Below, one piece after another: positions 2,093 through 14,467 of a stretch of DNA of 23,120 nucleotides. Positions within the stretch are counted from its first letter, which is position 1, and each line of letters starts with the position of its first letter. The notes below the pieces were generated by a model. That model made no database searches and had not been told where the DNA came from. It saw only the letters and a program-made list of their open reading frames with translations. Both the position numbers and the translations under genes were made by a program. The DNA lies in IMG/VR virus record IMGVR_UViG_3300021356_000180, positions 1 to 23,120 of that record. The stretch is one strand, 5' to 3'. This DNA comes from a virus.

Positions 2093-3060
2093 CAAAAACA
2101 GACACAGTAAAAAAATATATACACAAGTACCCTAAACATGGTAATCGTACCATTGCTCAACTTGTTGTTAAAGAACACCCTAATCTATTTCCAACTTTAG
2201 ATGCTGCACGTTCCTGTGTACGACGCATACGAGGCAACATCGGTAAGTCAAAACTTCATCATTCAGATCCAGAACTTAGAAAACCCAATGGCAAAGCAGG
2301 TGAATACAAACTACCTAAATCACTCAACAAAAAGAAATCTATCGTTAAGATCCCTGATGGGACTACTCTCATCTTGTCTGATGTGCATGTTCCTTATCAC
2401 GACGTGGATGCTTTGGAGTGTGCTCTTAGCCATATTGAAAATCCTACAAACATTGTTCTCAATGGTGATGCGGTAGATTTCTTTGCTGTCAGTCGTTGGG
2501 ACAAGGATCCTGATGCTCGTGACTTAGCTGGTGAACTACAAGCTAGTCGTCAGTTCCTTATGCATCTAAGAGAAAGATTTCCAGAAACTAATATATTTTT
2601 CAAGATTGGTAACCACGAAGAACGTTGGGAAACATACCTGTGGCGTAAAGCTCCAGAGATATGTGGTGTACCAGACTTTAAACTTTCAAAGCTACTTCGC
2701 TTTGAGGAATTGGGTATAGAGGAGATCGGAGGTCGTCAGCTTGCAAAAGCTGGCGGTCTTTGGATCTTACACGGTCACGAGTTCCCAGGAGCTTTTGACC
2801 CTGTTAACTTTGCTCGTACCTTACAAGTGAAAACAGGATGTTGTACCATCGCTGGTCACAAGCATAAAACCAGTCAGCATTCCGTCAGGCGGATGAATGA
2901 CGATACGGTCAGTTGCTGGTCCATCGGCTGTCTCTGTGATCTTGATCCTGACTATATGCCTGTGAATCAATGGAACCTCGGCTTCGCTGTAGTCACCCAC
3001 AAAGGCAAAAAATTCAGCGTGGACAATTACAGGATTGTTGATGGAGAAGCCCACCGTTAA
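2089..3060 (+). CDS. Calcineurin-like metallophosphoesterase with a basic N-terminal extension
   Basis: This 323-residue protein has the full metal-binding motif set of the calcineurin-like phosphoesterase fold: SDVH (D98, H100), NGD (G126, D127), GNHEE (N175, H176), HGH (H228, H230) and AGHKH (H257, H259). The family hydrolyses phosphomono- or diesters with two metal ions; substrates range from nucleotides to DNA ends and phosphoproteins. About 90 residues precede the domain. Residues 1-55 are basic and helical in character and could be a DNA-binding helix-turn-helix, but I cannot confirm that. The gene overlaps the SNF2 gene by 4 nt, which suggests DNA processing. Its TAA stop overlaps the stop of the opposing fibre gene. 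Base composition rises to about 50-55 percent G+C in the last 240 bases, unlike the rest of the gene. Confidence 0.9.
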   Translation: MTKTDTVKKYIHKYPKHGNRTIAQLVVKEHPNLFPTLDAARSCVRRIRGNIGKSKLHHSDPELRKPNGKAGEYKLPKSLNKKKSIVKIPDGTTLILSDVHVPYHDVDALECALSHIENPTNIVLNGDAVDFFAVSRWDKDPDARDLAGELQASRQFLMHLRERFPETNIFFKIGNHEERWETYLWRKAPEICGVPDFKLSKLLRFEELGIEEIGGRQLAKAGGLWILHGHEFPGAFDPVNFARTLQVKTGCCTIAGHKHKTSQHSVRRMNDDTVSCWSIGCLCDLDPDYMPVNQWNLGFAVVTHKGKKFSVDNYRIVDGEAHR

Positions 3061-3695
3061 TTATCTGTTAGTTTAAAAATTGATAAGTGTACTGCACCAT
3101 AACCTGTAGAACCACCAGAACCTGGACCACCCCAAATTCTTTCAACTGTACAATAAAGACTTCCTGCACCCCTTATTTGTACTAAAGAGGTACCAGCATT
3201 ATCAACGCCATAATCAATAATCATTTCCCCTGCGTTAAAATATGAGCCTCCAGTAGTCTTATAATAAAACTTAAGTCGGCAATTTTTACCACTTGCAAGA
3301 GATACTGATATTTGATAATGACCTGTGGGTAAAGTAAAAGTACCATTAGATTCAGTTATACCTATATTTTCCTGTGAAGAAATACCCCAATTAGTAAGTG
3401 TACTTGCACCAACAGCACCACTAAAACTTTTGTAAGCTGAATACCAAGGTATGTTAGGTTTAAAGTTTGCAACCGCTTGTGTTGAAGGTACTGTTGTATT
3501 ATTTGGTGAGTTAAGGTTAGTTGCTATATCAGAAGTGCCTATCTTATCATCCAATGCAGTCTGAATACCTTGACTTGTTACAGCCTTAGTACTTGATGAA
3601 TCAGGTGCTGTGTCTATATTATTAAGATGAGCTAATGATTTTTCAATAGCTAAATCAACATCTGATCCTGAATAATTTAAATTATATTGTGTCAT
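3057..3695 (-). CDS. Fibre-like protein, third of three tandem paralogues
   Basis: This 212-residue protein is the last gene of the minus-strand late operon. Its first 80 residues (MTQYNLNYSGSDVD, then AIEK, DTAP, TKAVTSQGI and TVPSTQAV) are clearly related to the N-terminal regions of the next two genes upstream. The C-terminal 120 residues are unrelated in sequence, rich in Gly, Ser and aromatics, and beta-like (GHYQISVSLASG, LKFYYKTTGG, LSIFKL). They resemble the C1q/TNF-like jelly-roll heads often seen at the tips of phage fibres. I infer a short fibre or receptor-binding accessory whose shared N-terminus docks to the virion and whose head varies. Its start overlaps the preceding stop as ATGA. 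Its stop overlaps that of the opposing phosphoesterase gene. The exact binding partner is unknown. Confidence 0.6.
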   Translation of the reverse strand: MTQYNLNYSGSDVDLAIEKSLAHLNNIDTAPDSSSTKAVTSQGIQTALDDKIGTSDIATNLNSPNNTTVPSTQAVANFKPNIPWYSAYKSFSGAVGASTLTNWGISSQENIGITESNGTFTLPTGHYQISVSLASGKNCRLKFYYKTTGGSYFNAGEMIIDYGVDNAGTSLVQIRGAGSLYCTVERIWGGPGSGGSTGYGAVHLSIFKLTDN

Positions 3696-4237
3696 GATAA
3701 TGCTTTAAAATAAACTCTTTCTGTACTTGTCTCTCCACTAAAGGTTACACTCCAAGCTCCTCCATTAGATATTGCTATAGGTGGTATAGCTCTGGGAATA
3801 TTATTACCACCCTGACTAGTTTTGTATGTAATACCTTCAACAACAGCAGTAGCAAATCCATCTTCCTCGTTATCATTTCCTCTAAATGAGAATACTATAA
3901 ATCCATCACTTGTTGCAGTTCCACTTGCATTACTTTGATTACTTGCTAAGGTAGTAAAACCAGATGCAAAACTTTTTGTATTAGCATCAACATAGTCTTT
4001 CACTGCAGCAGCACTTGGAACTTTTGTATCTACATCATTAGCTGCAATAGTCTGTGTCTCTGTAACAATGTCTGATGTGTTTATCTTAGCATTTACTGCT
4101 GTGTATATACCATCACTATTTACAACTTTGTTACTACCTTGTTGTGGAGCTGTGTCTAAACCAACAACATGTACACGAGCCTTTTCAATAGCCTCGTTTA
4201 TCTGTACTCCTGTAAATGGTAAATTGTATTGTGTCAT
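3692..4237 (-). CDS. Fibre-like protein, second of three tandem paralogues
   Basis: This 181-residue protein shares the N-terminal module of its neighbours: MTQYNLPFTGVQINEAIEKA, then LDTAPQQGS, KVVNSDGIYTAV, INTSDIV and VPSAAAVKDYVD. The last 85 residues differ from both paralogues and look like a small beta-sandwich (SFASGFTTLASN, GFIVFSFRG, AWSVTFSGETSTERVYFKAL). The shared region probably forms a trimeric stalk or attachment segment and the C-terminal part a variable head, by analogy with other phage fibre proteins. It follows the first paralogue by one base and overlaps the third by 4 nt. I see no Shine-Dalgarno sequence, so translation is likely coupled. Confidence 0.6.
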   Translation of the reverse strand: MTQYNLPFTGVQINEAIEKARVHVVGLDTAPQQGSNKVVNSDGIYTAVNAKINTSDIVTETQTIAANDVDTKVPSAAAVKDYVDANTKSFASGFTTLASNQSNASGTATSDGFIVFSFRGNDNEEDGFATAVVEGITYKTSQGGNNIPRAIPPIAISNGGAWSVTFSGETSTERVYFKALS

Positions 4238-4238
4238 A

Positions 4239-4940
4239 TTATAAATGCTTGATTATAGTAACAGTAACTTCTTTCCAAAAAACAGTAAAAGTGTATGATG
4301 AATTAGAGTAGCTATAATTTAAGTCAATTCTAGCAAATGACTCCCTAGATGTATCATAAGTATTAATACACCTATTAAGACTAATTCTTTTATATTGATC
4401 GTCTGGTGGTGAGCCAGTATTATTAGGACGATTAGCTATTCGAATTTGTGGATTTTCAACAGTGTTGTGGTGATTAGCAGTCCACGTTAAACCTCTAAAA
4501 TACCAATTAGAAGCAAACCCTTGAGAGCCAACATACAAACCTGAAAATAAAATAGTGTAAATACCGTTTGCTGCAAGGGTTATTGTAGTGCCATTAGTAG
4601 AAGCAAAATTCTGAGGATCCGATGCTTCAGATAAAGTATTAAGATTAAATGTACCTGTGCCATTTCTAGTCACATTACCATCCGTTGCTGTAAAACGAGC
4701 TAAATTATAACCAGGACCTACATAGTCAACTATTGCTTGTGTTGTTGGGACTGATGTGTTATTAGGTGTATTAAGATTAGTAGCCAAAGAACCTTCTACC
4801 TTAGTATCTAATGCAGCTTTTATTCCCTCACTAGTAACCATCTTGGTACTAGGACTCTGCGGAGAAAGGTCAGGACTTACCACTCTAGTAAGCCCATCAC
4901 GTACCTCATTTCCACTGAATGGTAAATTATAATCAGTCAT
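4239..4940 (-). CDS. Fibre-like protein, first of three tandem paralogues
   Basis: This 233-residue protein is the first and longest of the trio in transcription order. Its N-terminus (MTDYNLPFSGNEVRDGL, then LSPQSPSTKMVTSEGIKAAL, LATNLNTPNNTSVPTTQAI) aligns with the other two. The ATNLN-PNNT-VP-TQA segment is nearly the same as in the third paralogue. The C-terminal 150 residues contain alternating hydrophobic beta strands (GIYTILFSGLYVG, SYTFTVFWKEVTVTII) of the kind found in C1q-like fibre heads. Its ATG directly abuts the TAA of the upstream basic-protein gene (TAAATG). A GGAAG about 7 nt before the ATG is a weak possible ribosome binding site. Function as a receptor-binding or decoration fibre is inferred from composition and position only. 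Confidence 0.6.
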   Translation of the reverse strand: MTDYNLPFSGNEVRDGLTRVVSPDLSPQSPSTKMVTSEGIKAALDTKVEGSLATNLNTPNNTSVPTTQAIVDYVGPGYNLARFTATDGNVTRNGTGTFNLNTLSEASDPQNFASTNGTTITLAANGIYTILFSGLYVGSQGFASNWYFRGLTWTANHHNTVENPQIRIANRPNNTGSPPDDQYKRISLNRCINTYDTSRESFARIDLNYSYSNSSYTFTVFWKEVTVTIIKHL

Positions 4941-5180
4941 TTAGCACTTCCACTTTCTAAGGGCTAACGCTTTACGAGTAGGACGCCCATTCTTATCTTT
5001 CATAGGTCCTTTGACCCCAGACATTCTAGCACAAAAAGATTTACGACGCTTCGCTGCTTTAGACCCACGCTTTACTTTACCAGTAACAGGAGCCTTGAGG
5101 TTCGCACCTTCTTTAGCTTTGAAGTATCTACGACCTGCGGCAGTTAAACCACCAGTCTTACTTTTGTGCTCTTTTCTCAT
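4941..5180 (-). CDS. Small cationic protein with SKTGGL and RKSFCARMSG motifs (DUF6321-like)
   Basis: This 79-residue protein has 27 Lys/Arg against 3 Asp/Glu. It contains SKTGGLTAAGR at residues 7-17, GANLKAPVTGK at 25-35, KRRKSFCARMSG at 44-55, and ends ALRKWKC. From memory this string of motifs recurs in marine phages and in large algal viruses, and it appears to correspond to DUF6321; I cannot search to confirm. Function is unknown. The charge and the late-operon position fit a nucleic-acid-binding virion component, but that is inference. The two cysteines (50 and 79) lie inside the conserved motifs. Its ATG shares a base with the stop of the upstream 70-residue gene (TAATG). Confidence 0.75.
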   Translation of the reverse strand: MRKEHKSKTGGLTAAGRRYFKAKEGANLKAPVTGKVKRGSKAAKRRKSFCARMSGVKGPMKDKNGRPTRKALALRKWKC

Positions 5181-5392
5181 TAGTACTTTAACTTCTTAAA
5201 GTCCTTAGTAGTCTCAGGTCCTTTCATACCTTGACCCTTGATCTTACCAAGTGATTTTTTCTTCTTCTTAAGTACATTACCTAAGAGTTGTAGTATTTTT
5301 GTTTTACTCATTTTTCCGTATTTTAATCCGTATTTGATTACACCTTTACCTCCGTAAAGATCTGCTAAAGGGTTGATTGGTGATTCTGGCAT
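5180..5392 (-). CDS. Small Lys-rich hypothetical protein
   Basis: This 70-residue protein has a neutral N-terminal third (MPESPINPLADLYGGKG) followed by a lysine-dominated body that includes a run of five lysines (LKKKKKS) and ends DFKKLKY. I recognise no domain. It lies inside the run of cationic mini-proteins and shares TAATG junctions on both sides. It has the best ribosome binding site in the window: AGGAGG eight bases before its ATG, inside the end of the upstream gene. That supports real and probably strong translation, and it favours this start over the internal ATG of MSKTK. Confidence 0.65.
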   Translation of the reverse strand: MPESPINPLADLYGGKGVIKYGLKYGKMSKTKILQLLGNVLKKKKKSLGKIKGQGMKGPETTKDFKKLKY

Positions 5393-5667
5393 TATGCGTT
5401 CCTCCTATTTGCTTTTACTCTTCTCGGCTTCCCTGCAGGCTGACCGATACGCTTCTTTTCTGCGATACGCTGACGCTTTTGCGATTCTGAAATCTCCGTT
5501 GCAGTCACAGGCGTCTTGCTTGTCACACGCTTTGATGGTCTGCAATATGGCGTTCCTCGCTTTTCGCCCTGTTGTCGTCCACAAGGCTTTCCAGAGCGGA
5601 CATCTACCCACTTCTCCTTGAACCACCTCTTCAGAGCTAGTCCCTTGGCTGTCTTCCGAACGCTCAT
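5392..5667 (-). CDS. Small basic protein with paired PCGR/YCRP cysteine motifs (DUF5872-like)
   Basis: This 91-residue protein begins MSVRKTAKGLALKRW. It carries the motif RWFKEKWVDV at residues 14-23, then PCGR at 28-31 and YCRP at 41-44, and a basic tail rich in KR pairs. The KWVD, PCGR and CRP arrangement matches what I remember as DUF5872, found in marine phages and algal viruses as small proteins or as parts of larger ones. Function is unknown; the two cysteines could bind a metal or form a disulphide. Base composition is about 50 percent G+C here, well above neighbouring genes. A second frame over the same DNA (down to 5405) is also open, but it lacks these motifs. The start is immediately after the stop of the 41-residue gene. 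Confidence 0.72.
   Translation of the reverse strand: MSVRKTAKGLALKRWFKEKWVDVRSGKPCGRQQGEKRGTPYCRPSKRVTSKTPVTATEISESQKRQRIAEKKRIGQPAGKPRRVKANRRNA
5401..5406 (-). promoter_or_regulatory. Strong Shine-Dalgarno sequence for the 70-residue gene
   Basis: On the minus strand the sequence reads AGGAGG, then eight bases, then ATG ending at 5390. It lies within the last codons of the upstream DUF5872-like gene. Most other starts in the window have no such purine block, which makes this one stand out. Confidence 0.7.
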
Positions 5668-5793
5668 TTAGCTCTTCGTCCCCCAATTCTTAGCTCCTTT
5701 CTTACGACATTTAGCTATAGCACCAGACGCATACGCACTAGGAAACACTCTGTACCGAGCTTTTACTTTCTTATAGCATGCGTCCTTAGCCAT
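5668..5793 (-). CDS. 41-residue protein with CYKKVKxRY and SAYASGAIAKCRK motif
   Basis: This gene is easily missed because it is so short. From ATG at 5793 to TAA at 5668 it encodes 41 residues. It starts MAKDACYKKVKARYRVFPSA, continues YASGAIAKCRKKGAKNWG and ends TKS. It fits exactly between its neighbours: the ATG shares one base with the upstream stop (TAATG), and the TAA directly abuts the next ATG. The CY(K/H)KVK-RY...PSAYASGA(L/I)-KCRK-GA-NWG pattern is one I remember from many marine phages and large algal viruses, often near DUF5872-type proteins. This cannot be verified here. The two cysteines (6 and 29) and the conserved aromatics suggest a compact fold despite the length. Function is unknown; it has 12 Lys/Arg against one Asp. 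Confidence 0.75.
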   Translation of the reverse strand: MAKDACYKKVKARYRVFPSAYASGAIAKCRKKGAKNWGTKS

Positions 5794-6110
5794 TAATTTC
5801 TTTTCTTTTTCTTATCGTATGTAAAGACTTGTTTCTGTCCTTTTTTCTCTTGGATTCTTTCTTGAACCCTTTGAGCTGCTGACTTAACACGTGTCTTAAC
5901 TTTCTTAGCTACTACAGGTGCTTGAGTTTTTACTTTCTTTACACCTTCTTTAGCTCCTTTAACAACAGCAGGGGCAATGACATCTTTGATTGCCTTGCCT
6001 TCCTTCTGTGCTTGTTTCTTAGCTAACTCAAGAGCTTTTTTAGCTGCTGGAGACAGAGCTTTACCGCCTGCCTTTGCTGCTTTTAATAATCCCATTAATA
6101 TTGACGACAT
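5793..6110 (-). CDS. Lys/Ala-rich histone H1-tail-like protein
   Basis: This 105-residue protein has about 26 Lys and 4 Arg against 7 acidic residues. It is dominated by Ala, Lys, Val and Pro patterns such as AAKAGGKALSPAAKKAL and APVVAKKVKTRVKSAAQR, and it ends YDKKKKRN. The composition resembles bacterial and eukaryotic H1-like tails, which bind DNA without sequence specificity. I recognise no defined domain. A short hydrophobic N-terminus (MSSILMGLL) precedes the basic part. It lies in the middle of the cationic mini-protein run. Binding or condensing DNA is a reasonable inference from composition; a low-complexity structural or membrane-active role is an alternative. Confidence 0.6.
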   Translation of the reverse strand: MSSILMGLLKAAKAGGKALSPAAKKALELAKKQAQKEGKAIKDVIAPAVVKGAKEGVKKVKTQAPVVAKKVKTRVKSAAQRVQERIQEKKGQKQVFTYDKKKKRN

Positions 6111-6113
6111 AAA

Positions 6114-6302
6114 TTATCTTTTCTTTCTAATTTTTTGTTTAATAAGTTTTTGTAAAATTTTCATTGGAAGTACCATGCCTTTTTTAGTGTTACTCATTTT
6201 TCCTAGCAACACAGATTCACCTTTAGCTCTTTTTTCCATTTGCATAATACCGTAACGATTACCATCCTTACGCATATTTGCTAATTGTTTAAGAGCGTTC
6301 AT
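6114..6302 (-). CDS. Small cationic hypothetical protein
   Basis: This 62-residue protein begins MNALKQLANMRKDGNRYG and ends with a very basic helix (LIKQKIRKKR). It has no acidic block and six methionines, including the start. I recognise no domain. It sits three bases before the next gene of the operon and one base after the previous one, with no Shine-Dalgarno sequence. It is real by context: a tight, co-directional, gap-free gene array. Its role is unknown. Confidence 0.55.
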   Translation of the reverse strand: MNALKQLANMRKDGNRYGIMQMEKRAKGESVLLGKMSNTKKGMVLPMKILQKLIKQKIRKKR

Positions 6303-6303
6303 G

Positions 6304-6486
6304 TTACTTAGATTTTAGTTTTAGTTTTAGTTTTGCTTTTTTAAGTCTTTCTGCTTCATCTTGCCTTTTTTTCTTGTCTGTATCGTAAGCTCTTGTGCCA
6401 CGAGGATCAAGGGCTCTGTTAAGATATTCAAGGACTGAATCTTTCTTTGCTTTAAATTTTTTAAGTTTTTCTGGAGGTATTCTCAT
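6304..6486 (-). CDS. Small charged, Lys-rich hypothetical protein
   Basis: This 60-residue protein starts MRIPPEKLKKFKAKKD, has a short central segment (EYLNRALDPRGTRAYDTD), and ends in a helix of alternating Lys and Leu (AKLKLKLKSK). Its 3' end is built from a 6-base tandem repeat, so the length of the K-L tail could vary by slippage. The start shares one base with the holin stop (TAATG). I recognise no domain. It is the first gene of the cationic mini-protein run in transcription order. Confidence 0.55.
   Translation of the reverse strand: MRIPPEKLKKFKAKKDSVLEYLNRALDPRGTRAYDTDKKKRQDEAERLKKAKLKLKLKSK
6313..6334 (-). repeat. Hexamer tandem repeat encoding alternating Lys-Leu
   Basis: On the plus strand the unit ttttag occurs three times in a row, followed by a partial fourth copy. 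On the coding (minus) strand it encodes the KLKLK tail of the 60-residue protein. Each unit is six bases, so gain or loss keeps the frame. Confidence 0.7.
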
Positions 6487-6893
6487 TATTTACTTACTGC
6501 TGCACTACCGAAATAGAAGGAGATGATGCTGATAACAGCAGTCTTTATCTCTGGTAGTATAATATAACCGTGTAGGGTTTGATAGGTTGTGCCTTTTACA
6601 AAGCCAAACCATTTACTATATTCACTAGCAACAGTGACCCCTTCTTCACTATGTGCTAAAATAAAAGGTGCAATAATTACACCAAATAAAACTGTTAAAA
6701 CAATAATGCGTCTTGTCCAAGCACCAAAGGAATCTACCCTAGCTGCTGCTGCATCGGCACTTTCGTCTGATGCTTTCTGTTTCTTAATCAAACCTTCAGT
6801 AATAGCTGCTTGATTCTGCACCATTGTACCAATAAGTTTAAAGACGAATCCTGAGAATCCGCCACCTAACATAGCTAATAGTTCTGTAGTCAT
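6486..6893 (-). CDS. Probable holin (three-transmembrane, GTA-holin-like)
   Basis: This 135-residue protein has an N-terminal hydrophobic segment (about residues 4-24) and a clear transmembrane helix at 62-80 (RIIVLTVLFGVIIAPFILA). A third lies at about 109-132, ending ISFYFGSAAVSK. The closing FYFGS motif and the three-helix layout are like the GTA_holin_3TM family, whose members make inner-membrane holes for lysis. The first helix is weak, so two helices are possible. It sits between small membrane proteins and downstream of the fibre gene, the usual place for lysis genes in T7-like phages. No endolysin is found nearby in this window. Confidence 0.65.
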   Translation of the reverse strand: MTTELLAMLGGGFSGFVFKLIGTMVQNQAAITEGLIKKQKASDESADAAAARVDSFGAWTRRIIVLTVLFGVIIAPFILAHSEEGVTVASEYSKWFGFVKGTTYQTLHGYIILPEIKTAVISIISFYFGSAAVSK

Positions 6894-9085: not shown

Positions 9086-12000
9086 CTACTCGCCTGCACT
9101 TTCAGCCAAATCCTGGTGCGAATGGGTTAAAACCTCTGCAAATGTGTTAGCATACATATGTTTTGCAATCGGACCGACCAATGGTAGGTTCTCTCCAGAG
9201 AATGGTGACATACCCTCTGCCACACCTTTACCATCTAATGTAAACACATCACCAGCAACTTCTGCTGCTGTACCAGCTAGTGGTGACAAGATCCCTGTTG
9301 GACCATCAGTCATAAGATTCATAGGATACTCAAAGAAACCAAATGTACCAGACTGTCTAATAAGTCTTTGGAATTCAAAGGCTGTCATATCAAACAGATT
9401 TATAGGTTCTTTGAACTTAGCTAAGTCTTTCAATACAGTCGCCATATATGCTAATGCAAACGATGTACCAACCCAACCTACCACATGCGACATCTGTTGT
9501 GCCTTAAGTGCATCACTACCTCTGTAACCATTTGCAAATCGTCTCATAATCTGACGAGACATAGCAATTGGGAACACAGAGTACTTCATACCAAATCTTG
9601 CAGCAACACCTTCTGGTGTACCAGATGTAGTGCCTAGCTTTGACATTGCTTGTGCTGACACATTAGGCATTAACACAGCGTCATTCATACCTTGAATAAA
9701 GTACTCTGACATCATCTGTCTTAGTTGTACATTGTCTTGAATATGACTAGGTGCAATACGATCAACACCATCATCAGTCTTTCTTACATAGTTTTTAAGA
9801 TTAGCTATGTCAGCATCACTAAATCCATTACGTCTTAACGCCTCTGTCATCAAAGGCATCTTAGAATTATCTTTTGCCCATATAGCCAAGTATCTAGACA
9901 AGAAATCAACATATACTTGCTGGTGTGCCGCAGTAGCGTGGTTAACACCATTAACACTAAACATTATGTCTTTGAGTCCGTGCATGAAACCACCAGCAGA
10001 CGCATCATTTGTAATACGAGTAGATGCAACCTTAAGAGCCGCATCGAACCCAGCAGCTTGTGCTTCAAAGTATGCAGTCATCTTAGATCGATCACCATTA
10101 AATCTTTCAGAGATAGCAGTCACATAAACATCAAACATCTCCTTAGAGAATGTTCCAATCTCAACACCATTGTATTTAAGCTGAGCTGTTATATTAGCTA
10201 AGTCACTTATTGTAGCAAATCCTGATGTAGGTAGGAATACTAAGTCTGACAGTGCCTCAAACGGTCTTGATGCTTGGTACAAGGCTGCATCTACAGGATT
10301 ATCTAAGTCACCTGTTAACTGACGAACACTTGCAATGTATGTCTCATAAGACAACTTCTTAGCTATGTTGTCTCCTTCTTTTGGTCTAAACTCTTCTGCA
10401 AGACCCTTAAGTGCATTAAGCGGATTAGCTGATACATACTCTGCAAGAGCTATACGCTCAGAACGAATGCGTACTTGGTCAAGGAACAACTTACCAAGAT
10501 TAGACTCACCACTAAATGTTTTAAGTGCATAAGCCTCAAACTCTGGCTTTACCTTAATTACCCTAGGGTTAATCAATCCAGACAGTAAGTACGAACCACG
10601 CTCGTCCCCCTCTTTCCTTGGAGAAGTAAGATCTTCGAACCACTCTTTAATAAATGTCTCTGTATCAAACTTTCTGTAGCCTTTCTTATCTTTTGGTTTC
10701 AAGAACCCACCGTGCAATCTTCTTGTTTCATCAAAGTCAATTATTCTAAGAATTTCTTCACGGAAACGCTCAAAACCCATCTCTCTGGCTACCGTTGGTG
10801 ACCACCTCTGACTCCAACCACTAAAGTCTCTTCTTGTAGGTATTGCGTAACCAAGCTGATTTAATCTAGCTAACTGTGATTGTGTGACGCCACGCATAAC
10901 TTGCATAAGCTTGATTGCATCTTTGTTGCCCTCTAGTCTCTTAGGAACTTTGTTAGTTCTAATCCCTTCCATAAGGTCAGAGATAAACTCAAAGGCTATC
11001 TCTTCAACAGTTCCACTGTATGCTTTGTGGTTTTCTAAAAGTCTATCATTCTTACCTTTAGGGTTAAATATGTCTTTTACGGTCTGTAACCAAGACTGAT
11101 AGTTATCTGCCAAGAAAATATCAGCATAACCATTCTCATGTAGAATATGTAATAAAGGTAATTGGTCAGCGTGTATCTGAGCACGGAGCTTAGTACCTAT
11201 AGATCTATACACTCTAGAATCACTACCAGTGTTTCTTTGCTCACCATCAATTAAACTCTTCAGTAAGTTAAATCTGTGGTCAGGGTTGTCTACTGATTGA
11301 AGTAGCTTTCTAATACCAGAGATGTTGCGTTGCTCTCTGATGTTAACAAGCAAGTCAGTCATCGCTTGCTGTCTAAGAAGTCGTTTTACTTTATTAGCTA
11401 CATCTGTATTTAGTACATTACTTTCATCTTGAATGATGTACGCAATCTTGCGAAGTAAACCATCGTTAATAACACCCTCAAAGCTTCTAAGGGCTGTAGC
11501 AGTCTCTCCAGCTTGTTTTTTAGCTAATTCTATAAGAACCTCTGCGTGACTCCCCTTAAGCGGCTCATGGTGCAATAGACGCTTACCAGCAAGCCTTCCT
11601 GTAGCAATCTCATTAAGAATCCAAGCTCTTTGTTCTTGTCTAAAGTTTTTAAACTGTGTACCCTCAAGCCAAGCTCTATAGTTTTCAACTGCTTGTCTTT
11701 TTGCTTCAGCTACAGTAAGTTTCTTTCCGTCCAAATCAGTTGTAACTAACTCAGCATTTCTTGTCTGACCTTTATAAGCTGTCCAAGGATTACCAAAATG
11801 ATTATCACCCTCTTTTCTATTTACATTAATGTAATTATCTCTTTGCTCTAAGTCTTTAATTTTAACTAAAGTAGCCTTTGCAAACTCTGGTGGTATAACA
11901 GCTTCCTGTCTTTCGTTTAAGAACTTAAAGAATTTATCAAGTGATATCCTGTCATCAGGACCACCTACTCTGTAATCTGTAATTAAGTTAATAACAGTTG

Positions 12001-14467
12001 CAATAGAGTTGTACCTAGCTTTTGATTGGTTAAACCAATTATCAATAAGATTCTTGGAGATACCAATCTTCTGTAAACGATCATATGTATCTTGTCTAAT
12101 TGGTTGTGTGAAGTCTAGTAAGTCTTCTACAATAGCGTTAGTACGATCAAGATTACCAAGGTTAAATATTTCTTTTAGTTGTTTCTCGTGGAAAGCAATA
12201 GGGTCTTTCATGAACTCCTTTTGCTCATTCACAAGTTTTACCATCTGTTCAAACTGATCTCTAATGTCATCAGCAAGACCACGAGGCGTTCTTTTTGCTT
12301 CTCTGTCTTTACTTGCCGCAGCTTGTGCTTCGTTGACTCGATCCTTAGACCTCTTCAACTCTACATCATTAGAGTCAAGAAACTTCTTGACCTTAGTAAA
12401 TGATGGTTCAACATCTTTAAAATCTTTTAATATCTTAGCTACATTTCTTGCAACAGCATCAGGGTTGTTGTTGTTAAACTTGTCAGCAGTAATATTTTTA
12501 AACTCTGGTGCTACCAACTCTTTAGCTGCACGGAAAATACGAAGAAGAGCATCTACCCATTTGTTATAGAATGTTGGGTCAAGTCTACGAAACTCTCTCA
12601 TAAACTCTTTCTGAGTTAATGCCCACTCAACTAACCATGATGGATACTCATCTCTGAACTTCCATTGAGGATAGTTGTTTCTTTCTAGTATCTTATCAAA
12701 CTCAGCTTTTAGTCTTGGATTAGTTATTACAATATCCACAAGTCTTTTCCAACTACGTGGATCAAGCTTACGCATATTATGCACAGTTTCGTGTAGGATA
12801 ACTTGGAATGGTGTGTATCCCTCAACTGCACGAGAATACCAAAAGTCTGCTCGTGATATGAATATATCATCTGTGTTACCTTTGATGGTATAACCCATAG
12901 GCTCTACACCATCTATGCGTGGAGGTACTACAGCCTTTACATTGAAATTCTTATATCCAAAGATTTCTCTTACAATTGCTTCAGCTTCTTTTATCTCTTT
13001 GTTGAACTGTTTTGCGTAGTTATCTTCAAAGGACTTTACTGCAGTCTCAAACTCTTCTTTGTATCTTTGGATCTTAGCAGGGTCAGTACCATCTCTGAGT
13101 GCTTGATTATAACGCTTTCTAAAGAATGAGACTTGACCTAATATTGATCTAGCTTCTGCAGCTCTAGACATATGATTACGTAAGTAGTTAGATTTGTAAC
13201 CTTTGTTACTCCACGAAGCACCTCTTCTACTTGGCTCTACGTTAGTCTCATCAAGTTCTTCTTTGCTTATTTTATAACCAATATCCTCAACAACAGATTG
13301 TAATCTCTGTGGTAGCTTACCAACAGTATCAGTTCTAACGGCTTCTGTTATTGTTAAGTAGTCAACAGTAAACTGTCTATACGCCTCTTTTAGTTGAACA
13401 CTACCCTCGTCAGCTAACATACTATTAACAAGTCCTGTGAACAATGAGTTTCTTAATCTACCATCAAGTATCATTAATGTTCTTTCATTAAGAACTCTGT
13501 CCATCTCCTTCAAAACCTTTGTAGGGATATTACCGTCAAACACTAAACTTTCTTCATTACCTTTAGCTTTTTTGACGCTGTTCAAATGTGTCTGTACAGA
13601 GTCTTGATTTAAGAAGTTTGCTAAGTGTGTGTTAACCTCATGATTTTTAATCATGTTCTTGTCTAAGGCAGTCAACAAAAAGAATGGCTTTGACACATTA
13701 CGTTGTGTCATAAAATCCTCAACCTTTACTTGCATCTCTAGTTGGAACGCTTGTTTCTTTCTGCTATGCAAACCCATGCCAACACCTATCTGACCAAAAG
13801 TTTGAGATGCTGTCAGCTCGGTTAAATAATTTAACAGAGCTTGTGATGATGATACATCAACACCTCTGTCGTGTAGTGCATAGTTTCTAGCTATATTAAG
13901 GGAAGTGGTAACTCCAAAATTGTATGCAAATAAATCAACATTAGACTTAAAAAAGTTTTGGAGTGTACCTCCTTGCTCTTTTAATTTCTTCAACCTTTGT
14001 GCAGTAGTTAGAACTTTAGTTGTTCTTCTTGCTGCATTCCACGCACCTACTGAACCAGCAGCAAGTGTTAATGGTATATCAACCGCACCTTCTGGTGTAC
14101 CAAACCCACCAATTAATTTTCCAAAAGTAAACTCATCTCCAGCAGGGACTTGTTTAGAATACAAGTAGTCCTTTGTAGCCATGTATGTTGCATTGGCTAA
14201 TTTATCTTCACTTGTATCATCTGGATCTAAATCAAGACCTAATCTTTCGTTTACATCTTTTACTGACTCTGGGGCTGCTTTAGGAGAATCACCTAATCCA
14301 AGTTTTACACTGTTATATATATTTACAAGGGCGTCATTATTAAACGCCATTTTTTGACCAAGAGACACGTCTTGAATAAAACTCTTTTTTGAAAGAGTGT
14401 TTACATTATCATTTGAACGAGCAAGCGATCGAGCATTAAACTCGCTATCTAAGAAATCAGTTGACAT
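9086..14467 (-). CDS. Giant internal virion protein (T7 gp16 position) with HExxH zincin motif
   Basis: This 1793-residue protein is much longer than T7 gp16 (1318). It holds the gp16 slot in the conserved order of ejection proteins, which leave the head and form a channel across the cell envelope. Residues 550-620 carry a metallopeptidase signature: VILHETVHNM, with the zinc ligands H559 and H563 and catalytic E560. A candidate third ligand is E614 in VEWAL. I see no lytic transglycosylase motif set in the N-terminal part. The middle is long, charged and helical. The C-terminal part has a hydrophobic segment from about H1661 (HVVGWVGTSFALAYMAT) and ends in a Gly/Pro-rich region (GPTGILSPLAG). 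Position and size give strong support for an internal virion protein. Protease activity is inferred from the motif. Confidence 0.8.
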   Translation of the reverse strand: MSTDFLDSEFNARSLARSNDNVNTLSKKSFIQDVSLGQKMAFNNDALVNIYNSVKLGLGDSPKAAPESVKDVNERLGLDLDPDDTSEDKLANATYMATKDYLYSKQVPAGDEFTFGKLIGGFGTPEGAVDIPLTLAAGSVGAWNAARRTTKVLTTAQRLKKLKEQGGTLQNFFKSNVDLFAYNFGVTTSLNIARNYALHDRGVDVSSSQALLNYLTELTASQTFGQIGVGMGLHSRKKQAFQLEMQVKVEDFMTQRNVSKPFFLLTALDKNMIKNHEVNTHLANFLNQDSVQTHLNSVKKAKGNEESLVFDGNIPTKVLKEMDRVLNERTLMILDGRLRNSLFTGLVNSMLADEGSVQLKEAYRQFTVDYLTITEAVRTDTVGKLPQRLQSVVEDIGYKISKEELDETNVEPSRRGASWSNKGYKSNYLRNHMSRAAEARSILGQVSFFRKRYNQALRDGTDPAKIQRYKEEFETAVKSFEDNYAKQFNKEIKEAEAIVREIFGYKNFNVKAVVPPRIDGVEPMGYTIKGNTDDIFISRADFWYSRAVEGYTPFQVILHETVHNMRKLDPRSWKRLVDIVITNPRLKAEFDKILERNNYPQWKFRDEYPSWLVEWALTQKEFMREFRRLDPTFYNKWVDALLRIFRAAKELVAPEFKNITADKFNNNNPDAVARNVAKILKDFKDVEPSFTKVKKFLDSNDVELKRSKDRVNEAQAAASKDREAKRTPRGLADDIRDQFEQMVKLVNEQKEFMKDPIAFHEKQLKEIFNLGNLDRTNAIVEDLLDFTQPIRQDTYDRLQKIGISKNLIDNWFNQSKARYNSIATVINLITDYRVGGPDDRISLDKFFKFLNERQEAVIPPEFAKATLVKIKDLEQRDNYINVNRKEGDNHFGNPWTAYKGQTRNAELVTTDLDGKKLTVAEAKRQAVENYRAWLEGTQFKNFRQEQRAWILNEIATGRLAGKRLLHHEPLKGSHAEVLIELAKKQAGETATALRSFEGVINDGLLRKIAYIIQDESNVLNTDVANKVKRLLRQQAMTDLLVNIREQRNISGIRKLLQSVDNPDHRFNLLKSLIDGEQRNTGSDSRVYRSIGTKLRAQIHADQLPLLHILHENGYADIFLADNYQSWLQTVKDIFNPKGKNDRLLENHKAYSGTVEEIAFEFISDLMEGIRTNKVPKRLEGNKDAIKLMQVMRGVTQSQLARLNQLGYAIPTRRDFSGWSQRWSPTVAREMGFERFREEILRIIDFDETRRLHGGFLKPKDKKGYRKFDTETFIKEWFEDLTSPRKEGDERGSYLLSGLINPRVIKVKPEFEAYALKTFSGESNLGKLFLDQVRIRSERIALAEYVSANPLNALKGLAEEFRPKEGDNIAKKLSYETYIASVRQLTGDLDNPVDAALYQASRPFEALSDLVFLPTSGFATISDLANITAQLKYNGVEIGTFSKEMFDVYVTAISERFNGDRSKMTAYFEAQAAGFDAALKVASTRITNDASAGGFMHGLKDIMFSVNGVNHATAAHQQVYVDFLSRYLAIWAKDNSKMPLMTEALRRNGFSDADIANLKNYVRKTDDGVDRIAPSHIQDNVQLRQMMSEYFIQGMNDAVLMPNVSAQAMSKLGTTSGTPEGVAARFGMKYSVFPIAMSRQIMRRFANGYRGSDALKAQQMSHVVGWVGTSFALAYMATVLKDLAKFKEPINLFDMTAFEFQRLIRQSGTFGFFEYPMNLMTDGPTGILSPLAGTAAEVAGDVFTLDGKGVAEGMSPFSGENLPLVGPIAKHMYANTFAEVLTHSHQDLAESAGE

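Follow-up and report, generated by a model that had tools for sequence, protein, structure and literature searches.

Three linked cationic, two-cysteine modules of marine phages as candidate minor virion proteins

A run of seven small, strongly cationic late genes was analyzed at positions 4941-6486 of the window, by which we mean the whole IMG/VR virus record IMGVR_UViG_3300021356_000180 (23,120 bases, 24 genes). The run consists of a conserved three-gene core and four variable, lineage-specific cationic companions. The core genes encode three modules, termed here YASGA (after the conserved stretch in its motif), DUF5872 and DUF6321, which recur together in marine phages and are joined into single polypeptides in cyanomyoviruses, where fused homologues have been found in virions. 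We interpret the core as a cassette for minor virion proteins, most likely packaged in the head in the manner of the T4 internal proteins but not homologous to them, a reading to which we assign a probability slightly above one half (about 0.52).

The seven adjacent open reading frames (ORFs) described in an earlier note on this DNA were confirmed on the minus strand, where they tile from 6486 down to 4941. Each begins with ATG, and neighboring genes overlap by 1 base (at 6486, 5793, 5392, and 5180) or are separated by 0-3 bases. Coordinates and translations bore out the existence, order and tight packing of the ORFs and the three motifs that the note had reported, and its charge counts were exact (27 lysine or arginine against 3 acidic residues in 79 amino acids, and 30 against 7 in 105). 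Ranked by charge density, these ORFs are the top seven of the 24 window genes, with 20-30 net charges per 100 amino acids, compared with at most 6.3 in the remaining genes; the net charge per ORF ranges from +11 to +24 and sums to +122, and the probability that the top seven would be contiguous by chance is 5e-5. The further proposal that all seven form one conserved set was not supported, as only three are conserved; in two close relatives (L407 and L408), YASGA, DUF5872, and DUF6321 come immediately after a 135-amino-acid gene and before a fibre gene, without the other four. The window capsid protein is a Phage_capsid_2 member with approximately 28-35% identity to those of HTVC010P-type pelagiphages and a Manatee Spring phage, and the virus was therefore taken to be a podovirus of this broad kind.

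The first core gene (5668-5793; 41 amino acids, KDACYKKVKARYRVFPSAYASGAIAKCRK) encodes the YASGA module, a predicted helical hairpin with two conserved cysteines; it matches phrog_727 at 2e-17, and its family is present in 366 phage records. The second (5392-5667; 91 amino acids, KRWFKEKWVDV..GKPCGR..YCRP, two conserved cysteines) matches PF19197 (DUF5872) at 9.6e-16, with 58.9 bits against a cut-off of 27.5, over profile positions 49-111 of 116. The third (4941-5180; 79 amino acids, GGL..RRKSFCARMSG...RKWKC, two conserved cysteines of which the second is C-terminal) matches PF19846 (DUF6321) at 2e-27, with 96.1 bits against a cut-off of 28.5, over the full profile (1-72 of 72). The YASGA gene also aligned below threshold with the N-terminal half of PF19197 (15.1 bits; E, 0.037; profile positions 11-41), and YASGA-DUF5872 fused proteins at two loci (L281 and L074) lend support to its possible identity as that half. 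The two window genes follow the profile order, YASGA (11-41) and then the DUF5872 C-terminal half (49-111), so that what Pfam treats as one profile would be two genes here. PF19197 and PF19846 both have no assigned function, and nothing in their Pfam entries, as consulted, links DUF5872 to DUF6321. The first sign of fusion came from phrog_727 and phrog_3477, in each of which YASGA and DUF6321 stretches occupy separate positions, whereas the window matches our profiles for YASGA, DUF5872, and DUF6321 (1.4e-26, 9e-37, and 5.2e-34, respectively) in three separate genes. The ratio of nonsynonymous to synonymous substitution rates (dN/dS) was 0.02-0.06 for the DUF6321 gene against L407, L408, and L404 and, where measurable against close IMG/VR relatives, 0.12-0.19 for the DUF5872 gene and 0.05-0.11 for the YASGA gene. 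These values (0.02-0.19) indicate purifying selection, and the three core ORFs are therefore real genes.

The recurrence of the modules was examined by IMG/VR scans, one per module, each yielding the 80 loci nearest to the query (the seed sets share some contigs), with partner modules sought by profiles of the three modules within ±5 kb around the seed. At least one partner module was found in 78 of 80 YASGA-seeded loci, 46 of which carried all three modules; the YASGA partner was present in 79 of 80 DUF5872-seeded loci, and 30 of 80 DUF6321-seeded loci had a partner. The control set comprised 120 IMG/VR loci (1.04 Mb, all habitats) selected by an arbitrary 14-base word; 3 of them contained any module and 1 the YASGA-DUF5872 pair. 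The three motif families, described in the earlier note as recurring together, thus do so far above the random-contig level. All partner hits lie on the same strand as the seed (303/303), mostly less than 1 kb away. Two gene orders predominate, DUF6321-YASGA-DUF5872 and, as in the window, YASGA-DUF5872-DUF6321. Co-occurrence spans podoviruses, roseophages, gammaproteobacterial phages, and cyanomyoviruses. Two or three modules are encoded as separate adjacent genes in P-SCSP2 (host, Prochlorococcus), CRP-7 (Roseobacter), HTVC023P (Pelagibacter), C72C1, and the gammaproteobacterial phage DSL-LC04; a 'PSAYANA' variant of YASGA occurs in these phages except CRP-7, and HTVC168P has DUF6321 without YASGA or DUF5872. 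The earlier note had named large algal viruses as well as marine phages; this is upheld for the phages and, among algal giant viruses, for DUF5872, proteins of which occur in the haptophyte viruses CpV-BQ1 (PMC12085832) and CeV-01B, while no DUF6321 was found in algal viruses.

A host-gene origin was considered from 70 genome-contig loci and was set aside, since these are mostly metagenome-assembled and could be viral, and 23 of them carry a partner module. Separately, a DUF6321 relative with 37% identity, which may be a prophage or a cellular copy, was met in the genome of a bacterial isolate and not in a metagenome bin (L506; Nonlabens xiamenensis contig NZ_RMVE01000006.1). In two unrelated phages, the cassette adjoins a short EF-hand-like gene (LKGNQKKxDxNKDGKISxEDF) that is absent from the window (P-SCSP2 gp20, L001:3761-3886; HTVC023P gp53, L009:4281-4646).

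The search for fusions suggested in the earlier note found the modules joined in one polypeptide in cyanomyoviruses: Syn9 gp114 (443 amino acids), S-SM2 gp109 (708), ACG-2014f gp129 (839), and S-SCSM1 ORF29 (517), the last of which contains all three. S-CREM2 gp160 (128342-129235) carries DUF5872 and YASGA modules, and its coordinates are those of ORF160 in the published proteome of cesium chloride (CsCl)-purified virions, in which ORF160 was detected by 7 unique peptides with 13.1% coverage (PMC10665884, Table 3). S-SCSM1 ORF29 is deposited as 'virion protein'; the corresponding paper reports 45 virion proteins detected by mass spectrometry, in passages where ORF29 is not named by number (PMC9602691). 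S-SM2 and S-B68 label their multi-module proteins T4-GC119, which is annotated as structural in S-B68; in the main text of Sullivan 2010, T4-GC119 is called a hypothetical protein, and it was not counted as proteomics evidence. A virion role is therefore well supported for fused homologues. The earlier suggestion of virion proteins stands for two of these (S-CREM2 gp160 and S-SCSM1 ORF29), and from them we infer the same for the window phage.

In other phages the genomic settings are of the head or packaging kind. The module genes of P-SCSP2 and the DUF6321 gene of HTVC168P lie between scaffold and capsid genes, the modules adjoin capsid and cement genes in DSL-LC04 and precede terL and portal in CRP-7, and the module protein is encoded between terS and terL in S-SM2, S-SCSM1, and ACG-2014f. 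Around the YASGA seeds in IMG/VR, most large neighbors with named PHROGs belong to head, tail, terminase, or structural families, with ferredoxin and exonuclease families also among them. Of 65 downstream neighbors of these seeds, 34 match phrog_12985, a family with one member that Pfam assigns to the SU10 adaptors.

Two cysteines are conserved in every module, and in YASGA and DUF6321 the pair is kept or lost together. After dereplication, 43 DUF6321 sequences had both, 7 had neither, and none had a single one; the cysteine-less forms mostly read SFAAR...KWGFG and have gained a C-terminal extension. Among YASGA/YANA sequences, 20 had both, 7 had neither, and 1 had the first only, a chance pattern hit. 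In DUF5872, both cysteines are replaced in a small group of sequences (DYS...FRP); in six sequences the first is shifted and the second retained. Fisher values for the YASGA/YANA and DUF6321 counts were 6.8e-06 and 1e-08, which overstate the evidence because the sequences are related. Concerted retention and loss in YASGA and DUF6321, with some support in DUF5872, is new and suggests a predicted intramodule disulfide, a pattern that one disulfide inside each module would fit. A phage-wide redox cause of the losses was rejected, as L071 and L033 lack the cysteines in YASGA/YANA and retain them in DUF6321. A zinc-finger reading was also set aside, there being two conserved cysteines per module and no consensus histidine, although a dimer could form a metal site.

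AlphaFold2 gave a confident three-helix fold for DUF6321 (predicted local distance difference test score [pLDDT], 90.4) and a model of moderate confidence for a natural YASGA-DUF5872 fusion (pLDDT, 76), in which YASGA forms the helical hairpin. With the DUF6321 model, high-probability Foldseek matches among viral models were essentially only DUF6321 proteins, and none was found in the PDB (best E, 9.0); YASGA and DUF5872 had no match among PDB sequences. A ribosomal-protein origin of DUF6321 was rejected, as its eS30 matches at E 0.3 track shared lysine/arginine composition.

Two more small two-cysteine modules, CWxGYxxxG...NCVKK and KRRKSFRARHNC...ARYWSC, recur in fused proteins (L153:3859-4665, L002:3666-5792, L011:2239-3132, L033, L039, and L048), and the latter is similar to the C-terminal part (second half) of DUF6321, except that its first cysteine is shifted.

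In the mechanism that we propose, each core gene would yield one small cationic module (YASGA, the DUF5872 C-terminal half, or DUF6321), in which the two conserved cysteines probably form a single stabilizing disulfide. The modules would be made as separate late proteins in the window podovirus and several other marine phages and as beads on one polypeptide in cyanomyoviruses, with the separate-gene versions presumably behaving like the fused ones. The proteins would enter the particle and most likely lie in the head interior against packaged DNA, with a role comparable to that of the T4 internal proteins, which are likewise small and basic; ejection together with the genome may follow for some of them. 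The remaining four cationic genes would be fast-changing companions of the same kind.

Several observations weigh against this mechanism. No virion data were found for the separate-gene versions, and in CsCl-purified phage highly expressed proteins can be contaminants, as the S-CREM2 authors noted. The window cassette is flanked by membrane genes and fibre-like genes, near the late operon's 3' end and outside the head cluster; its genomic position is therefore not enough to assign it to the head. P-SCSP1u encodes an 84-amino-acid DUF6321 protein, and the main text of its cryo-electron microscopy study describes capsid, portal, adaptor, nozzle, and fibre proteins (PMC10575957). Because that text omits the DUF6321 protein and the PDB holds no DUF6321 relative, the protein must be missing from the particle or else be present there without ordered symmetry. 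Nucleic-acid binding by the modules is a prediction, and the cysteine losses, judged from the sequences, appear to represent about four or five independent events.

Four other explanations were weighed. The fusions with DUF192, a deaminase, GP88, and DUF5661 suggested that the modules might serve as tags or anchors for encapsidation, with a C-terminal DUF6321 carrying the joined cargo into the head and the free mini-proteins being either bare or binding cargo in trans. DUF6321 is fused to a cytidine/dCMP deaminase (L069) and to DUF192 (S-SM2), a YASGA/DUF5872 protein to GP88 (L143), and two YASGA proteins to DUF5661 (L163 and L171); viral structure models named AAA and Ferritin/DPS contain DUF6321 (Foldseek), and the position of DUF6321 in fused proteins is always C-terminal. 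We consider this reading rather unlikely. Few of the fusions bear cargo, and in the genome-contig set the majority of DUF6321 ORFs are 79-125 amino acids long; YASGA and DUF5872 also occur without cargo, and the presence of fused enzymes in virions is a prediction. The deaminase fusion itself (L069:4007-4795, with DUF6321 at its C-terminus) is possibly a virion-carried enzyme.

We consider it less probable that the modules are protamine- or histone-like neutralizers that compact the packaged genome in hundreds of copies. The extreme net charge of the seven ORFs and their late-operon position would suit such a role, but the S-CREM2 homologue gave 7 unique peptides, whereas the major capsid protein gave 165 and the portal 53 (PMC10665884), and bulk condensation is less likely for this reason, within the limit that lysine/arginine-rich proteins are under-counted after trypsin digestion. 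The modules also have a definite predicted fold with conserved aromatic, glycine, and cysteine positions and are not of low complexity. More doubtful again is a place on the capsid or tail surface, as cement or fibre-associated adaptors whose positive charge pairs with acidic virion proteins and whose disulfides provide stability. Disulfides are typical of exposed proteins, the window tail and capsid proteins are acidic, and the next window genes are fibre-like; this reading is countered by the head and packaging genes that neighbor the modules in other phages and by the P-SCSP1u and PDB results above. The least probable is that they bind nucleic acids inside the cell, as late regulators or as factors of host take-over, and are carried along when particles are purified, for although small basic late-operon proteins can be regulators and non-structural proteins do occur in cyanophage virion proteomes, two homologues in two separate virion proteomes and the position among packaging genes argue otherwise.

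The four companions are supported as genes mainly through their tight tiling. The 70-amino-acid ORF at 5180-5392 (net +14), between the DUF5872 and DUF6321 genes with a 1-base overlap on each side, and the 105-amino-acid lysine/alanine-rich ORF at 5793-6110 (net +23) had no relatives in the phage and IMG/VR searches. The lineage-specific ORF at 6114-6302 (62 amino acids, net +15) had a single match in the sequences searched. The ORF at 6304-6486 (60 amino acids, net +13) has one clear relative, at the same position in L416 (phmmer, 1.5e-15; 58% identity), and its dN/dS against that relative, 0.83 over 60 codons, is uninformative. In L416 this relative is accompanied by a different basic gene of 153 amino acids ahead of YASGA, DUF5872, and DUF6321; the slot of 5793-6110 is filled by this gene in L416 and by another basic gene (161 amino acids) in L418. 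The likeness of 5793-6110 to a histone H1 tail, proposed in the earlier note, comes down to lysine/alanine composition, and its identification as an H1, HU, or nucleoid protein was rejected: it had no Pfam match at E<=1, sub-threshold and unrelated NCBIfam hits, and no phage or IMG/VR relative.

Around the run, 6486-6893 encodes a 135-amino-acid putative membrane protein (phrog_38283) that is strongly conserved in at least 80 IMG/VR relatives, with up to 98% identity; the genes downstream of it vary among these relatives, possibly marking a gene-exchange hotspot. On the other side (3057-4940), three tandem fibre-like proteins share an N-terminal MTxYNL and are likely paralogues with one attachment domain and different tips. 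The 1793-amino-acid virion structural protein at 9086-14467 (phrog_684) has a sub-threshold DUF4326 match at residues 870-978, a possible enzyme domain within an internal virion protein.

The analysis connects two Pfam domains of unknown function and a nameless motif, present in hundreds of marine phage genomes, as a single system for which there is virion evidence and whose chemistry, one predicted disulfide per module, can be tested. In the open-access literature searched, DUF6321 was unnamed and DUF5872 was named in a single paper. If confirmed, the cassette would give a name to many late genes of cyanophages and pelagiphages now annotated as 'hypothetical', add a disulfide-stabilized variant of internal head proteins, and hint at which fused enzymes travel in the particle. 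A broader view, unlikely though not far-fetched, is that these are widespread, interchangeable, disulfide-stapled cationic mini-domains of marine phages and, for DUF5872, of algal giant viruses, which occur free, beaded, or as enzyme tags and by which proteins would be placed on the packaged DNA and brought into the host cell; if true, phages would have a general code for encapsidation and delivery that lies outside the capsid-targeting pathway of T4.

Among known systems, the small basic proteins IPI, IPII, IPIII, and Alt of T4, which are packaged in the head and poorly conserved between phages, match the window proteins in charge and size. Each of the T4 internal proteins is present in about 300 copies; they bind DNA under low-salt conditions, and many are ejected (PMC9026906). 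No sequence link between them and the window modules was found, and the window modules differ in having a conserved cysteine pair. By inspection, no capsid-targeting leader cut by the prohead protease was visible in 5668-5793 or 4941-5180, where the module starts within the first residues, and the modules were therefore placed outside the T4 internal-protein family. T7 gp6.7 and gp7.3 are small ejected virion proteins encoded by short genes near the portal, scaffold, and capsid genes, a setting that resembles those of P-SCSP2 and HTVC168P in gene position, whereas the window cassette lies after fibre and lysis-like genes. Close counterparts are the cyanomyovirus multi-module proteins (S-SCSM1 ORF29, S-CREM2 gp160, Syn9 gp114, and S-SM2 gp109), which consist of the same modules fused through long linkers with inserted domains such as DUF192, whereas the window encodes them as three free mini-proteins.

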